In this document: positions 21,658 to 31,957 of the stretch, in pieces
Layout: each line of letters opens with the position of its first letter
Position numbering within the stretch: position 1 is the stretch's first letter
DNA from: Verrucomicrobiales bacterium
Lineage (GTDB): Bacteria > Verrucomicrobiota > Verrucomicrobiia > Verrucomicrobiales > DEV007
DNA: 39,145 nucleotides
Direction of reading: 5' to 3'
Assembly (NCBI GenBank): GCA_030730365.1
Contig: JANQVJ010000014.1
Coordinates: 4,520 to 43,664, forward strand
Translations under genes and position numbers: made by a program
Notes under the pieces: model-generated
The model's database searches: none
What the model was told of the DNA's origin: nothing
The model's input: the letters and a program-made list of their open reading frames with translations, nothing else

Positions 21658-21804
21658 TCAGGCTTTCGCCTTGCCGACTTTGCACTGGCCATCGAGGGAG
21701 GCGCCCTCTTCCATCTGGAGACTGACAGTATTCACCGAGCCCAGGATGATGGAGGTGGGGGAGAGGCGGCACGAGTTAAAGGTATCGTTGCCAACCGGAC
21801 TCAA
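21658..21804 (-). pseudogene. 3' remnant of a bactofilin-like gene
   Basis: Reading the minus strand to the TGA at 21658-21660, about 46 codons have very high third-position GC, as in the real genes here. They translate to a beta-helix-like end: SPTSIILGSVNTVSLQMEEG followed by ASLDGQCKVGKAKA. This matches the C-terminal turn pattern of bactofilins (...GDI-T-x-x-L-x-IEEGA-x-x-x-G-x-C...). Upstream of about 21795 the coding character stops abruptly and a stop codon lies in frame near 21858. The only nearby start would be the TTG at 21804. The gene therefore looks 5'-truncated, while its terminator (21589-21619) is intact. A functional 48-residue peptide is possible but less likely. Confidence 0.55.
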
Positions 21805-22015: not shown

Positions 22016-23353
22016 ATGACAGAAAATTGTTCATCTGAACGGCCTAATTATGGCCGGACCTTCAGAATCGCGATGGGCGTGATAGGGGGGATCGCGTCGC
22101 TTCAGATCCTCGCGCTCGGTTTCGGTGTTCTGCGTCGCACCCCGTCCGCGAGTGATACGGCTCCGCCTGCCAATGCACCGGCCCCACCCTTGCAAATAAT
22201 GATGCCGGCCGACGCGGCCTCGCCCATCCCGGAGGCGGGCGAAAAGACGGGCAGTGTCGGGTTCGTGACACCACATCCGGCCGCCGAGATAAGCGTCGTC
22301 GGGCCGGTCCCGGCCGCTTCGGGAGAGGTGGCGGACGCCATGACAGGAAATCAGGTCGTTCCCGGTTTTTCGTCGGGAGAAGACCCGGTCGGGACGCGAG
22401 CTCCTCTTGGGGCGAATCTCGGCGGTGCCCTGCGTTCGGTCGGCCCCTCAGCACCTGCAGGCAAGGTTTCTGCGCTCCCTTCACCTCCCTTCGGTGCGCC
22501 CCCCGCGGCTTCCGCCCCCGGTAGCGGTGAGGATAGTCCTTCGCTATCGGCGGCGCTGGCGGTGGCGGCGCGGAAAAATGAATTGAGCGGCGAACCCATC
22601 CTCGAACGTCTCATGTCAACAGGGGCCGAGTTGCGGGCGAGTGGTAACATGCAGGGCGCTTTGCAGGCCTTTCGCCAAGTTGAGTCGGCCCTGCCGGATC
22701 ATCCTCGCATTCTCGCCGAGTTGGGCGCGACGCTGAGCCAGATGGGCCTGACGGAAAAGGCCAACGGTTACTGGGAGCGGGTCGAGGGCGTCGGACCGGT
22801 CGTGGCAGGTGCGTATTTTCCTCTAGCCGGGCAGCAACTCAGGGGTGAGGCACTCCCGGCGGCGGACTCGAGTGTCAAGGTGATGAAGATCGGGGAGGTC
22901 AAGGTTGAGGAAGCGGCTCCGACGAGTGAAGGCCAGAAGGTAACGCTGCGGGTTGTCGTCGATGCCGACCCTAACGCCCGCCCTATCGGAGAGGATCTCA
23001 CCCTGCTGGTGTATTTCTACGACCGGGTCACGGACGGTGAGGTGAAGGCCTCGACAGCCGATACTTCCTACGATTATCCCAGTGCGCCCTACGACTGGCA
23101 AAGCGACGGCACCGAGGAGATCATCGTGAAATACAACCAGCCGGTCTTCACCGATGAGCAAAAGCTCGAACTGGGTGAAAGAAGTTTCTATGGATATGCG
23201 ATTGAACTTTATTATCGTAACCAGATTCAGGATAAAGTGGTGATGCCCGAAGACATCGCGCGGCTGAGGCTGGAAAGTCCCGCCGATACTGCGCCCGCCG
23301 GAGGGTTCCTCGGCCCCGAAAACGCGTTATTCCCCGATCCTGTTTTTCCCTAG
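22016..23353 (+). CDS. Membrane-anchored TPR protein with Pro/Ala-rich linker
   Basis: 445 residues from ATG 22016; an upstream TTG at 21944 would add 24 unlikely residues. One membrane helix at about 16-38 (RIAMGVIGGIASLQILALGF) puts the rest outside the cytoplasm. A long Pro/Ala/Ser-rich linker covers about 41-190. About two TPR-like helical pairs lie at 195-265 (LMSTGAELRASGNMQGALQA, HPRILAELGATLSQMGLTEK). A beta-rich C-terminal domain (about 285-430) includes VTLRVVVDADPNARP and LTLLVYFYDRV. Family not recognised. Its stop is 8 bases before the start of the receiver/pseudokinase/FGE gene, so the two form an operon and probably one envelope complex. Confidence 0.8.
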   Translation: MTENCSSERPNYGRTFRIAMGVIGGIASLQILALGFGVLRRTPSASDTAPPANAPAPPLQIMMPADAASPIPEAGEKTGSVGFVTPHPAAEISVVGPVPAASGEVADAMTGNQVVPGFSSGEDPVGTRAPLGANLGGALRSVGPSAPAGKVSALPSPPFGAPPAASAPGSGEDSPSLSAALAVAARKNELSGEPILERLMSTGAELRASGNMQGALQAFRQVESALPDHPRILAELGATLSQMGLTEKANGYWERVEGVGPVVAGAYFPLAGQQLRGEALPAADSSVKVMKIGEVKVEEAAPTSEGQKVTLRVVVDADPNARPIGEDLTLLVYFYDRVTDGEVKASTADTSYDYPSAPYDWQSDGTEEIIVKYNQPVFTDEQKLELGERSFYGYAIELYYRNQIQDKVVMPEDIARLRLESPADTAPAGGFLGPENALFPDPVFP

Positions 23354-23361
23354 CTTGTTGC

Positions 23362-25608
23362 ATGCAAAAAGACGTCGTCCTGTTAATCATCGATCAGTCC
23401 GAAGCCGATCGCGCCAAGGTGCGATCCATCCTCGGAGACAAAGTGGACCGCATCCTCGAGGCGTCAGATGCCGCGAGCGCCTGGGAAGCGTTAAGAGGGG
23501 TCGATCATCTTTCCATCATGGTGGCCAACATCGATGCCGCGTCGGGTCCCGATATCTTTGACTTGCGAGACCATCTCCACGGCGAGATCGGCTTTTTCCC
23601 CAGTGTCTTCTGCAGCCATGAAGACATGACGCCCTTTTACCCTCGGGTCGTGGACCGGGAGCGGCTCTTTTTCAAACCGGTGAATCGCGGCGTGCTGGTG
23701 GAGTGGTTCGAGGCTGTCATCAATCTCGAGCCTACCCCGGTCGACGATCTCCTCGCGGGTGCGGGGACCGCTAACGCGGCGACTCCCGCTTCCTCGAGCG
23801 AGCCGGTGAACTCGACTCCACCCGAGATCGCCACCGAGCCTAGCCCCGACAAGTTGGCGGAACCGCGTCCACTTCTGGAATCGGCCCCAATCAAGCTGCC
23901 GGAAGAGGCTCTCCCTGTGGGGACCCGGCTCGGCGATTACAAACTGCTACGCGAGATCCAGCGGGACGCCGATTTTGCCCTCTACGAGGCCGAGCAAACG
24001 TCGATCGGACGCCATGTCGCGCTCAAGACGCTCTATCGCAAGCACCGCAAAGACATCAGGTGGGTGCAGGGATTCGTGAACGAGGCGAGTGCCCGCGCCT
24101 CGGTCAATCACCCGGCGATTTCGCTCGTGTATGAGTGCGATCAGGAGCTGGGGGTGAACTTCTACACTCTCGAACTGGTCGACGCACCCAGCCTCAGTGA
24201 TCTCGCCCTCCGCCGCAGCGAGCTGGACGATACGGTCCTCTGGAAAGTTCTCGCGGCGGCCTCTAGCGCGCTCATCTATCTGCGCGACAACGGCATGTCC
24301 CATCGCCTTTTCACGGCGCAAAGCATTCTCATTGTTAAGGGAGCCGAGCCCCGCATTGCCAACCCCGTGCGCGGGCGCGGCAATCCTCTCTCGGTCGAAG
24401 AAGAGCGCAAACAAATGGAGCTGCTCGCCGACGCGATCTCCTCTTTCCTGAAAAAGTCGGTTACCGATCCGGCTTTGTTTTCCCTGATCGACCGCATGGG
24501 CACGGACCGCATCGATGCGATCAACTCGATCGAAGGACTGCGCAAGGCACTCAATCCGCCCGATCCTAAGGAGGGACTCTCCACCGCCGAACTGGCGAAG
24601 ATCACGGAGAAGGAAACGAACCGCACTGCTTTGATCTCGGGCTCGCTCATCGGATTCCTCATTGTCGCGGGGGCGATTATCTCCTTCCTCGTGATGGGGG
24701 CCAAGCCCGAGGTGCGCGAACTCGATTTCTACACGAAAATACCCGCCGGTATTTTCCCTTTTCAGAATGATGAGGAAATTGAACTGGGCGAATTCTGGAT
24801 CGGACGCCACGAGGTCACGATAGCCGATTACGCCAAATTCCTTGGAGACCTTGCCGCCAATCCGGAAAAGCAATTGCAAGTTCGTCATCCCGATCAGCCT
24901 GCCGAGAAGACCTCTTACGAGCCTGAAAAATGGCATCAATACCATCGCGCCGCGATCAAGGGCGGGAAATTCTTCGGCGGCGAGATTGATTTGAACTGCC
25001 CCGTCGTTGGGGTCGACTGGTGGGACGCTCAGGCATACGCGACCTGGCGTGGCGGTCGTCTCCCCACCGAGCAAGAGTGGGAAAAAGCGGCCCGGGGTCG
25101 CTCCGGCAGTGTTTACCCCTGGGGTGATACTCTCGAGCAGGGCCGCTTCAACAGCGGGCTTGATCACGAGGCCGCAGAGGGTGTCGCGGAGGGGAGTATC
25201 GATGGCTATAAGTTCTGGAGCCCTGTCGATGCGCTCACCGCCGACGAGAGTCGCTATGGCGTCATCGGTCTTGCTGGAAATGTGAGTGAGTGGACGGCGA
25301 CCTGGGACGCCCATCCGGACTTCCCGGACCGCAAGGTGCCGCTGAAGCGCGGGGCCTCTTTCGCGACCACTGCTGGATTCGAACTCACCGCTCGCCGGGC
25401 CGCCGAATCGCCGGGGGAGAGGAATTTCCTGACAGGTTTCCGCATTGTCTCGGATAAGGAGGTTCCCGTCTCGATGGCAGTGAAGAGCGATGGGCCTATT
25501 CTTCCTTCCCCCGCGGTAGGGGAGAGCCCCGCGGGGGCAACCCCGGCCGGAAGCAATGCAAACGCGGACGAATCGCAAGCCCCCGCTCCGGCGGAGTCGC
25601 CGCGGTAA
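23362..25608 (+). CDS. Receiver-like / pseudokinase / TM / FGE-sulfatase-like fusion protein
   Basis: 748 residues. About 5-120 is receiver-like (VVLLIIDQSEADRAKV, possible phospho-acceptor Asp58, Ser85, Lys105 in FFKP). A Pro-rich linker follows. About 190-370 is a Ser/Thr-kinase fold: VALK lysine 222 and helix-C Glu241 are present, but HRD-K-N is degraded to HRLFTAQSIL and DFG to IAN, so it should be a pseudokinase. A membrane helix lies at about 424-446 (SLIGFLIVAGAIISFLVMG). About 459-697 is an FGE-sulfatase/SUMF1-type domain (GEFWIGRHEVTIADYAKFL, VVGVDWWDAQAYATW, LPTEQEWEKAARG, GLAGNVSEWTATW, FLTGFRIV). The two catalytic Cys of true FGE are missing, so it is probably a binding domain. 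The C-terminal tail is Pro/Ala-rich. Cytoplasmic signalling domains are thus linked to an external ligand domain. Confidence 0.9.
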   Translation: MQKDVVLLIIDQSEADRAKVRSILGDKVDRILEASDAASAWEALRGVDHLSIMVANIDAASGPDIFDLRDHLHGEIGFFPSVFCSHEDMTPFYPRVVDRERLFFKPVNRGVLVEWFEAVINLEPTPVDDLLAGAGTANAATPASSSEPVNSTPPEIATEPSPDKLAEPRPLLESAPIKLPEEALPVGTRLGDYKLLREIQRDADFALYEAEQTSIGRHVALKTLYRKHRKDIRWVQGFVNEASARASVNHPAISLVYECDQELGVNFYTLELVDAPSLSDLALRRSELDDTVLWKVLAAASSALIYLRDNGMSHRLFTAQSILIVKGAEPRIANPVRGRGNPLSVEEERKQMELLADAISSFLKKSVTDPALFSLIDRMGTDRIDAINSIEGLRKALNPPDPKEGLSTAELAKITEKETNRTALISGSLIGFLIVAGAIISFLVMGAKPEVRELDFYTKIPAGIFPFQNDEEIELGEFWIGRHEVTIADYAKFLGDLAANPEKQLQVRHPDQPAEKTSYEPEKWHQYHRAAIKGGKFFGGEIDLNCPVVGVDWWDAQAYATWRGGRLPTEQEWEKAARGRSGSVYPWGDTLEQGRFNSGLDHEAAEGVAEGSIDGYKFWSPVDALTADESRYGVIGLAGNVSEWTATWDAHPDFPDRKVPLKRGASFATTAGFELTARRAAESPGERNFLTGFRIVSDKEVPVSMAVKSDGPILPSPAVGESPAGATPAGSNANADESQAPAPAESPR

Positions 25609-28583: not shown

Positions 28584-31500
28584 TCAATCTTCCTCGCTGT
28601 CTGTATTCGCGGGGCGGAGACGGGACTTGATCGTGGCGAGGAGGTCTGTGGCGGAGTGGCTTCCCTTTTTGAGGACGGTGCTGACTCTCTCGCGCAGGAA
28701 GGCCTGCTCGTCCCGGGTGGGATCTTTCCCGCTCATGACAATGACGGGGATGGATTTTAGATGGAGATCTTCGCGGAGATGCTGGAGAAACTCGAACCCG
28801 TCCATCCCGGGCATGATGAGATCGAGAATGATCGCGGCGGGACGGGTGCGGGCGAGGACGGCTAGAGCCTCGGCCCCGTCGTGGGCGAGAATGGTGCGCC
28901 AGCCGGCGGCCTCGAGGATACGGATCATCGATTCGAGCGACGCGGTATCGTCATCGACGAGGAGGAGGTTGCGCTGCGGAGAGTTCTGCGTCACACGGGA
29001 AATAACGCGACTGAGCCTTTCGACGTCGATGGGTTTGACGAGGTAGTCTTCGACTTCTAGGGCGAGGGCGTTCTCCTGCTCGGCCATGACCGAGACCATG
29101 ATGACAGGGATGGACTGTGTTACGGCGGATTCTTTGAGCGCCCGGAGGACGTCCCACCCGTCTTTGCCGCCGGGCATGACGACGTCGAGGGTAATGGCAT
29201 CGGGGCGGTGCTCAGCGGCAAGGCGCAGGCCCGAGTTCCCATCTTCTGCGGTGATGACACGGTGCCCGTCTCTTGTGAGGATGCGCTCGAGGAGGTCCCG
29301 CACTTTTACATCGTCGTCGATGACGAGGATGGTGCTGCCTTGCGGGATGACCTGACCGGGCCCGCTCGTTTGCGATACCGAATCGATGAGGACGTCAAAG
29401 TCTTCGGTTCTGCGGCGCTCGTAGTGCTCCGAGGTCGGTAGGCGCGGGAGGAAGACAGTGAAATGAGTGCCTTTGCCAAGTTCACTCACAAACCCGATTT
29501 TACCGCCCATCTGGGCGACGAGTTCGCGACAGATGGAGAGACCGAGACCACTACCGCCGGCGTTGTCTTTTTTGTTGGAAACGAAGGGCACGAAGGCCTT
29601 GGCCTGCTCGGCTGGGCTCATCCCTCGACCGGTATCGGTGACGGTAAACTCGACCCAGTCGCTGCCGTTGATTTCCTGTGGACGGGCAGCGAGGGTGACG
29701 GCCCCTTCAAAGGTGAACTTGCAGGCATTGCTGAGCAGGTTGCCGAGGATCTGCCGCAGTCGTCGCTCGTCGGTGACGAGTTCGCCGATATCCTCAGGGC
29801 TCTCGGTCGCGAGGGTGACGGGGCGGGCAACGACGGAGGGGCGATACGTCGAGGCGAGATCTTCGAGGAGCGCGGCGACTGCCACACTGTCCTTGTTGAG
29901 GGTCTCGGCGCCCATGATGATCTTCTGATACTCGAGGATATCGTTGACGAGATTCAGCTCGCGTGCAGCGTGGTCGCGGATGCGTTGCACGTCTTTCTTC
30001 TGCACTTCGTCCAGTTGCGAGAGCTTCAGCGCCTCGACCTGGAGGAAAATGGCGTTGAGCGGCTGACGCAGGTCGTGGCTGACTTTAGCGACGAAAGCGT
30101 CTTTCTCGTGGCTGAGGCTCTTGAGCTTGTCGTTCGCTTTTTCGAGCTCGATGTTCGTGCGTCGCAGCTCGCGGGTGCGGTCGTTGACGCGTTCTTCAAG
30201 ATCCTCCTGAAAGGTGATGAGTTCTTCAAAGAGGCGTTTCGAGGCCCTGGCGATATCGCCGACTTCGTCACGGCTTTTGATGTCGAGCCGCTTTGCGAGA
30301 GCAGCGACATGGACCATGAGATCCTCGCGCGGGCTGTCAGTGATCTTCTGCGCGGTCACGGTCATCTGCTTGAGCGGGCGGATGAAGTGCATCGCAAAAA
30401 AGAAGCCCACGATTCCGAAGCCGCCTGCGACGAGGAGGGCGATGTATTGCACCGAGAGCATCTCATACTCGATCGATGAGGCGAGTTCGTCGTCGAAGAC
30501 GGCGTAATGGATAAGGTAATCGCCGGTTCCCTCTCCCTCGCCGATGAGGAGACGCACGGTCCAGATGTGGATCTCGTCGCACTCGATCTCGTTTCGCCAG
30601 GAAAGTTTGTTGTCGCCCCCGGGGAAGTGAGTCTCGAGCTCTGACTGGACCAGCTCGCGGATCGCCTTCAACTTTTCCCGATCATGCGCGAGGAGACGCA
30701 ATTGCCGGACACCCGATTGCAGGCCACCGACGCGACCGAGCGCACCCGCCTTTTCCTGAAGGGACTGGATGAATTTTTCGTTCTCCTCTTCTCCGAGATT
30801 TTCGACAGCGGCGGCGAGGGATTTGCCGGGGATACCTTCCTGAAAAAAGTAAGGGCTCGCCAGCGGGATATGCTCGTGCCGGACGAGGCGATCGACTTTT
30901 GCCTCTTCCAGCGTCCGCGCGGGATCCGCCTGCCTTGCCCGCCGCGTGACAAGCGTTTCGACGAGTTCGGGGCCACGCCCGAGAGTGAGGAAAATGTCGT
31001 CATTGTCACGATCACTCGACTCGGTCTCGTCGTGCCGGACGAGTTGCCCCCCCGCGCCACTCACCATTGCGAAGAGATGTCGCGGCGAGTCGGTCGCATG
31101 GAGGGTCATCATGATGCGGATGTATCGCGACTGAGAAGATCCCGACTCGTAACTGCGGTCGAGTGGGGCGAGCGCCCAGATGACGGGTTCCCATCGGGTT
31201 ACGGGTTCGGTATCGGGTTCTATGCGGGTGAGATGAATTCTCTCTATGGGAGAGTAGTGGAGTCTCGACCCGGCCAGAGTGTCGGGACCTGGAAACCAGA
31301 CATCGGCTTCGGCAAGCTCGGCCTTTTCATGTATCGTTGTTGAGGTCAGGCCCGAAGGATCGAGCGTGACGATGTCGATGCGCAGATGATTTGTCCAATT
31401 GCGCCGGCAGAGAGTGCGGGCCAGGGCTTTCAGTTGTTCCGGTGATTCGCCGAGGGCGACGCTGTCGCGGAACCCGGTATTGAAGGCGATGTTAATGAGG

Positions 31501-31694
31501 TCGTCGCGCAGCGCATCGACCTGATCGATGATGGTCCAGCCACGCAGGGACGCCTCGTCACCCAGGTCGATGAGTTCGTGTTCGCGAAGAACTTCGGCGG
31601 CACGACCGGTGAGAACCTTGGCCACGAGCAAGGCCGAGGCGGCTGTCGCGAGGATGACCAGCAATGCGACTTTTCCCTGAATTCCAAAAGACAT
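28584..31694 (-). CDS. Hybrid sensor histidine kinase with two receiver domains
   Basis: 1036 residues from ATG 31694, chosen because MSFGIQGKVALLVILATA is the usual histidine-kinase start; ATG 31733 would add 13 residues. TM1 is at about 5-28, then an external sensor of about 390 residues without a recognised family, and TM2 at about 415-437. HAMP is at about 437-490, a coiled coil at 495-530, and HisKA with VSHDLRQPLNA (phospho-acceptor His near 540). HATPase has the N box NLLSNACKF, G1 DTGRGM and G2 GGSGLGLSI. Receiver 1 (ILVIDDD, LDVVMPGG, DYLVKP) and receiver 2 (LLLVDDD, LDLIMPGMDGF, VLKKGS) are in tandem. Both receivers keep the acceptor Asp. No partner regulator with an output domain is adjacent, so phosphotransfer must go elsewhere. 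Confidence 0.93.
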   Translation of the reverse strand: MSFGIQGKVALLVILATAASALLVAKVLTGRAAEVLREHELIDLGDEASLRGWTIIDQVDALRDDLINIAFNTGFRDSVALGESPEQLKALARTLCRRNWTNHLRIDIVTLDPSGLTSTTIHEKAELAEADVWFPGPDTLAGSRLHYSPIERIHLTRIEPDTEPVTRWEPVIWALAPLDRSYESGSSQSRYIRIMMTLHATDSPRHLFAMVSGAGGQLVRHDETESSDRDNDDIFLTLGRGPELVETLVTRRARQADPARTLEEAKVDRLVRHEHIPLASPYFFQEGIPGKSLAAAVENLGEEENEKFIQSLQEKAGALGRVGGLQSGVRQLRLLAHDREKLKAIRELVQSELETHFPGGDNKLSWRNEIECDEIHIWTVRLLIGEGEGTGDYLIHYAVFDDELASSIEYEMLSVQYIALLVAGGFGIVGFFFAMHFIRPLKQMTVTAQKITDSPREDLMVHVAALAKRLDIKSRDEVGDIARASKRLFEELITFQEDLEERVNDRTRELRRTNIELEKANDKLKSLSHEKDAFVAKVSHDLRQPLNAIFLQVEALKLSQLDEVQKKDVQRIRDHAARELNLVNDILEYQKIIMGAETLNKDSVAVAALLEDLASTYRPSVVARPVTLATESPEDIGELVTDERRLRQILGNLLSNACKFTFEGAVTLAARPQEINGSDWVEFTVTDTGRGMSPAEQAKAFVPFVSNKKDNAGGSGLGLSICRELVAQMGGKIGFVSELGKGTHFTVFLPRLPTSEHYERRRTEDFDVLIDSVSQTSGPGQVIPQGSTILVIDDDVKVRDLLERILTRDGHRVITAEDGNSGLRLAAEHRPDAITLDVVMPGGKDGWDVLRALKESAVTQSIPVIMVSVMAEQENALALEVEDYLVKPIDVERLSRVISRVTQNSPQRNLLLVDDDTASLESMIRILEAAGWRTILAHDGAEALAVLARTRPAAIILDLIMPGMDGFEFLQHLREDLHLKSIPVIVMSGKDPTRDEQAFLRERVSTVLKKGSHSATDLLATIKSRLRPANTDSEED

Positions 31695-31957
31695 GTTCAG
31701 TCGTTGATATGACGTTTTAACCTTTCCATGCATTCAGAAAAGGGAAACGACTTATCATTGCCCCGATGGGCACAGGACGTTTTCACGGATCAATACCTGA
31801 TCGACGCTGGCTCGAAAATCAGCGGACGCAACGGGGTCTGTTTGCCTCTCCGCGAGAGCGAACGCGTCCGATTGGACTAATTTGGAGGTAAACGTGAGGC
31901 GTCGTGGATTCTCAGCAAGCCGAATCCCTCATACCATGACGCGGTTCAACGGATCTT

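Follow-up and report, generated by a model that had tools for sequence, protein, structure and literature searches.

EssB/YukC and MviN are transmembrane pseudokinases able to act as scaffolds, as set out in the excerpts of a pseudokinase review used here (PMC12599244). EssB/YukC, of type VII secretion, is a transmembrane protein whose cytoplasmic pseudokinase is degraded in all three motifs and has a scaffold role, and the membrane pseudokinase MviN (ActPs3, mycobacteria) regulates cell-wall metabolism via partner recruitment (same excerpts of PMC12599244). A gene pair with likeness to both lies in a 39,145-nucleotide stretch of DNA from a Verrucomicrobiales bacterium (the whole stretch analysed, called the window below). 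Gene 1 encodes a membrane-anchored tetratricopeptide repeat (TPR) protein, and gene 2 joins a receiver-like domain, a kinase fold, a membrane helix and a domain of the formylglycine-generating enzyme (FGE) type. The pair is kept across the order, often beside cell-wall or cell-shape genes, and its role is therefore probably that of an envelope scaffold, structural or regulatory, and not that of a group of enzymes. The more specific reading, that it forms a transmembrane envelope scaffold, itself non-catalytic, which positions or gates peptidoglycan hydrolysis together with a third protein, is one to which we give roughly even credence. The observations reported here are the domain anatomy, the loss of catalytic residues, the linkage of the two genes across the order, purifying selection and the gene neighbours.

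The two open reading frames lie on the plus strand with 8 bases between them. An earlier, sequence-only reading of the window had placed a membrane-bound TPR neighbour at this distance upstream of gene 2, and both frames were found where it had put them. Profiles, predicted fold and hydropathy likewise bear out the four-part fusion that it had proposed for gene 2. The features are as follows.

22016..23353, plus strand: gene 1, membrane-anchored TPR protein of 445 residues with a C-terminal beta domain (ATG 22016 to TAG 23353)
22067..22123, plus strand: gene 1 transmembrane helix, residues 18-36 (hydropathy; helix 10-39 in the model)
22145..22537, plus strand: gene 1 Pro/Ala-rich disordered linker, residues 44-174 (predicted local distance difference test score, pLDDT, mostly <50)
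22544..22843, plus strand: gene 1 TPR helices, residues 177-276 (10-residue mean pLDDT about 84-96)
22883..23266, plus strand: gene 1 beta domain without Pfam match, residues 290-417 (model and Pfam scan)
23362..25608, plus strand: gene 2, receiver-like/pseudokinase/transmembrane/FGE-like protein of 748 residues (ATG 23362 to TAA 25608)
23362..23721, plus strand: gene 2 pseudo-receiver, residues 1-120, acceptor column at Asn56 (fold, Response_reg in relatives, receiver alignment)
23917..24591, plus strand: gene 2 pseudokinase, approximate limits, residues 186-410 (profile match, alignments)
24646..24702, plus strand: gene 2 transmembrane helix, residues 429-447 (hydropathy)
24775..25449, plus strand: gene 2 FGE-like domain without the catalytic Cys pair, residues 472-696 (profile match, alignment)

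The kinase part of gene 2 matches Pkinase with an E-value of 4e-7 over profile positions 16-139 of 263 only. The window protein scores 30.1 bits, below the cut-off of 31.7 (32.3 bits in the genome search), and PK_Tyr_Ser-Thr scores 26.7 bits, over its cut-off. Lys222, Glu241 and HR-Leu316 align with the Lys, the Glu and the HRD motif of PknA. The HRD Asp is replaced by Leu316, the catalytic-loop Asn by Ser321 and the DFG Asp by Asn334, the last motif reads NPV, and the Gly-rich loop is absent. Conservation was followed in 47 sequences, namely the window, 24 of the 32 other same-genus genomes, the genus record UBA6138 and 21 of 23 others. This set leaves out G002, G003, G018 and G028 (fragment or none), G013, G014 and G016 (contig ends), G029 (frame broken), G035 (no BLAST match at that time) and G043 (broken); G005 and G009 are partial. 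The HRD Asp expected of an active Ser/Thr kinase (PF00069) occurs in 0/26 genus and 0/21 other sequences, its column holding Leu, Met, Ile, Val or Pro, and the DFG Asp column holds Asn in 47/47. The loss of HRD Asp and DFG, which the sequence-only reading had claimed for the window protein, extends to the whole set, and an intact catalytic loop, with the catalytic Asp or a DFG, is seen in none of the 47. As a control for the pattern search, the window genome has seven kinase-profile matches, of which four show HRDxxxxN plus DFG or DLG, and one of these four frames also holds an FGE domain.

The VAIK Lys and the helix-C Glu, reported earlier as kept (in the form VALK), are indeed present in the window protein and in 26/26 genus sequences; they occur in 0/21 sequences outside, and their retention is not a family feature. 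Lys222 and Glu241 could serve nucleotide binding or some other chemistry in the genus, in the manner of SelO or SidJ, in addition to a scaffold role. Their invariance in the genus, the low rate of change of the kinase part (below) and the description of pseudokinases with other chemistry (excerpts of PMC12599244) would fit such an activity. We nevertheless consider it unlikely, given the missing Gly-rich loop, the replaced HRD Asp, the NPV motif, a profile match confined to less than half of the profile and the absence of both residues in relatives outside the genus.

The receiver part of gene 2 has the (beta-alpha)5 fold of a response-regulator receiver (PF00072) and lacks its phospho-acceptor Asp. 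The window protein itself gave no Pfam hit for this part at E<=1; Response_reg matches 3/26 relatives at E<=0.01. The AlphaFold model, built on an alignment of 20 sequences (the window and 19 of 20 loci; L078, with a broken frame, left out), has the (beta-alpha)5 order in residues 1-120, with a 10-residue mean pLDDT of 78-91 up to residue 80 and of 46-70 beyond. Foldseek with this model returned CheY or other receivers in all 50 rows shown, fusion or full-length entries aside; template modelling (TM) scores by target length were 0.45-0.78, mostly about 0.7, in an output that does not print the aligned range of the query. The sequence-only reading had named Asp58 as phospho-acceptor. This was wrong, as alignment with three intact receivers from this genome places the acceptor column at Asn56. 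That yardstick included receivers of a hybrid histidine kinase on the minus strand of the window (28584-31733), which by eye carries two C-terminal receivers. Across 26 genus sequences the acceptor column holds Gly (13), Asn (10), Ala (2) and Asp (1), such that the Asp is replaced in 25/26, and Lys105 is present in all 26. Asp stands at the column in two relatives, G009 within the genus and G173 outside the order. The earlier view that the domains of enzyme origin have all turned into binding modules, so far a putative role, agrees with the loss of catalytic residues, the acceptor column of these two relatives aside. Six genomes, all of family f4, have Glu at this column, which might imitate phosphorylation.

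Hydropathy gives one membrane helix in gene 2 and one in gene 1. The domain that follows it in gene 2 matches Pfam FGE-sulfatase with an E-value of 4.3e-38 (residues 472-696), and PF03781 matches 26/26 sequences. The stretch which we take to be the position of the FGE cysteine pair reads RGASFATTAGFELTARR and has no Cys, in agreement with the earlier claim that the catalytic pair is missing. Residues 640-700 are free of Cys in 40/47 sequences, a count that includes G005, which is cut before that region; four have one Cys and three have two, at other columns. The Cys pair of a formylglycine-generating enzyme is therefore not present.

GldK is an FGE-like protein with a structural role. A structural ring or anchor of a surface machine, like GldK/PorK in the type IX secretion system, would accord with a GldK profile match to residues 545-647 (E 2.8e-14) and with PorK among the PDB hits. 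The GldK score is, however, 53 bits against a cut-off of 350, and the SenA and EgtB profiles score better on the same domain, which makes this explanation quite improbable. FGE domains are also the ligand-binding parts of conflict or antigen-sensing systems (excerpts of PMC10907252), in which a variable FGE domain of C-type-lectin type would be at work. Such a system would be expected to show a patchy, variable pattern, whereas the pair is order-wide, sits in one conserved place and has a slowly changing FGE part; we give this explanation very little weight.

Linkage of the two genes was surveyed in 56 genomes, the window's included, of which 33 belong to the genus, 2 to other genera of the family and 21 to other families of the order. 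Gene 1 has a match in 52, and the pair is adjacent and co-directional in 51, among them G035 (by profile), G014 (gene 2 over two contigs) and G043 (gene 2 broken). The five genomes without an adjacent pair (G002, G003, G016, G018, G028) are 52-79% complete. Three further same-order genomes (G225, G259, G280) hold the pair, as does G173; conservation thus reaches well beyond the genome in which the pair was noticed. Some negative gene gaps in the locus comparison stem from start-codon choice. Separately, in G214, outside the order, a receiver-DUF4388 protein stands in the place of gene 2 (L160:8866-9543), with Gln at the acceptor column.

Nonsynonymous divergence (dN) is far below synonymous divergence (dS) wherever dS can be estimated. 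Because dS is saturated in many comparisons, only dN was compared between domains, with approximate domain limits, and dN was lower in the kinase part than in the other two domains in 6/6 genus comparisons (six relatives of the 20 at hand). Of the 33 columns invariant over 26 order sequences, 27 fall in the FGE-like part and the other 6 in the kinase, which indicates that strong constraint on the kinase belongs to the genus. Decay of genes 1 and 2 into pseudogenes is scarcely credible on these rates and on the long open frames of the great majority of copies, even with catalytic residues lost throughout and with copies in G009, G029 and G043 that seem broken in their draft assemblies. Sequence identities for the two genes have a Spearman correlation of 0.46 (26 sequences), which is compatible with shared descent and is no proof of interaction.

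In the gene 1 model the membrane helix is followed by the disordered linker to about residue 174, the TPR helices and the beta domain. TPR_19 matches the TPR part in 21/28 sequences at E<=0.01. The beta domain, modelled and without a match in the Pfam scan, answers to the novel beta-rich end of the earlier description. None of the best 60 of 114 hits in a PDB profile search covers most of it. Foldseek of the TPR protein gave mixed matches with query TM-scores of 0.12-0.17 in the best 50 rows, and no fold name for the beta domain. LpoP is among these matches over about 100 columns, read as TPR helices, and was not used as evidence. A profile of gene 1 was found in 71 of 240 genomes of the phylum, in some by the TPR part alone. 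The order accounts for 30 of the 71, and the 20 that are listed of the 169 genomes without the profile include none from the order.

The gene neighbours recur and point to peptidoglycan remodelling and cell shape. A third protein, some 260-380 residues long and starting with what by eye resembles a signal peptide, is found in 48/52 genomes (G000:C34:24223-25089 in the window genome) and lies directly after the pair in 22/26 same-order loci outside the genus, in 3/17 loci further out and in 0/22 genus loci. Its PDB profile search gave four weak hits (best E 0.003), and two copies scanned had no Pfam match. In nine genomes, drawn from four families (f3: G036, G043, G049; f6: G039, G041, G045; f2: G280; f10: G067, G214), the gene directly after that of the third protein encodes Amidase_3, as counted on six-frame translations, and the zinc ligands are intact in the seven of these nine that were aligned. 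The beta domain of gene 1 is itself fused to Amidase_3 in five f3 genomes (L123-L127, from G049, G052, G055, G036 and G043); both His zinc ligands and one Glu are missing in 5/5 of these fusions. A bactofilin gene lies divergently upstream of gene 1 in 18/21 genus loci, and in the window it is represented as follows.

21661..21795, minus strand: divergent bactofilin gene remnant, C-terminal 45 residues (80% identity with the gene in relative L068)

Further Amidase_3 matches lie elsewhere in the window genome, as do other bactofilin-family matches (G000:C74). As a side observation, a response regulator gene directly follows the third protein in 8/10 genus loci; its sequence was read in one of them (L190:9267-9791) and the other loci were assigned by BLAST cluster.

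These neighbours suggest an envelope function, and to this extent they support and narrow the earlier proposal of a transmembrane signalling or scaffold system. Several observations weigh against the peptidoglycan scaffold. The third protein is on a different contig from the pair in all 26 genus genomes in which both were seen. The amidase neighbour is limited to 7/26 same-order loci outside the genus, 2/17 further out and 0/22 in the genus, and the bactofilin neighbour is confined to the genus (0/23 loci outside), the window's own copy being the remnant given above. The neighbouring genes are identified in part only. For the kinase and FGE parts of gene 2 AlphaFold gave no usable model (pLDDT mostly <50), and for this reason both assignments rest on sequence profiles.

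The main rival is a general envelope-signalling scaffold without a special tie to peptidoglycan, such as a sensor of envelope stress or nutrients, beside which the neighbours would be incidental. The presence of the amidase and the bactofilin each in a part of the family only would be expected of such a sensor. In four families, including one from outside the order, the amidase recurs behind the third protein, and the gene 1 beta domain is fused to an amidase-derived domain; both facts argue against such a sensor, and we regard it as possible, though doubtful.

We propose the following working model for the peptidoglycan scaffold, in which we infer the topology, the physical interaction of the proteins, the ligand, which way the signal runs and a functional tie to amidase and bactofilin. 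Since no catalytic centre remains, binding is the likely mode. The pseudo-receiver and pseudokinase would sense or hold partner proteins inside the cell, and the membrane helix would relay their state outward through the inner membrane; the FGE-like domain that receives it may have a protein or a glycan as ligand. Anchored alongside the gene 2 product, the TPR/beta partner would reach further out on its long disordered linker, such that the FGE-like, TPR and beta domains could hold periplasmic partners. The third protein, apparently secreted and beta-rich and encoded elsewhere in the window genome, may be a further component. The assembly would position or gate peptidoglycan hydrolysis, possibly via an amidase of the AmiC type, and would coordinate it with a cytoplasmic element, for instance a bactofilin filament. 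More tentatively, the pair may belong to a core envelope machine of Verrucomicrobiales built of pseudoenzymes (receiver, kinase, FGE and, in one family, a pseudo-amidase), which would couple a cytoplasmic scaffold to amidase control by binding and without phosphotransfer; the pseudo-amidase of f3 has its beta domain in common with the TPR partner. To our knowledge, the wall biology of this bacterial group has been little studied. If the envelope reading is true, the pair would be a point at which this group controls its cell wall. Conserved as a two-gene unit across the order, it offers a testable case of a dead kinase under strong selection.

The terms FGE, formylglycine, sulfatase, receiver, tetratricopeptide and Verrucomicrob- are absent from the main text of the pseudokinase review (PMC12599244). 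No paper on the gene pair was recognised in the literature searched, which is weak evidence, as bioRxiv preprints and most subscription papers lay outside its scope. Kinase and FGE domains also occur together in a single frame of 964 codons elsewhere in the window genome (G000:C29; L005, L208), which differs from gene 2 in the HRDVKPSN and DLG that a pattern search shows in it; that search shows no VAIK there. By profile, gene 2 shares a fold family with FGE/SUMF1, EgtB and SenA and differs in lacking the catalytic Cys pair; it shares its receiver fold with CheY-type proteins and differs in the replaced acceptor. MviN is a multi-pass peptidoglycan-synthesis protein of the MurJ type, and MviN/ActPs3 is understood here as a pseudokinase on a multi-pass transporter. 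Gene 2 does not fit this description, having one transmembrane helix and an FGE-like C-terminus, and MviN is not known to have a receiver or FGE-like part. The order of a pseudokinase and then a single transmembrane helix, as in EssB/YukC, is found in gene 2. EssB/YukC itself is not known to have a receiver or FGE-like part, and it belongs to Firmicutes. It reads LDMR at the VAIK position (excerpts of PMC12599244), whereas the window's genus keeps the Lys. The gene pair resembles EssB/YukC and MviN in principle and is a member of neither.

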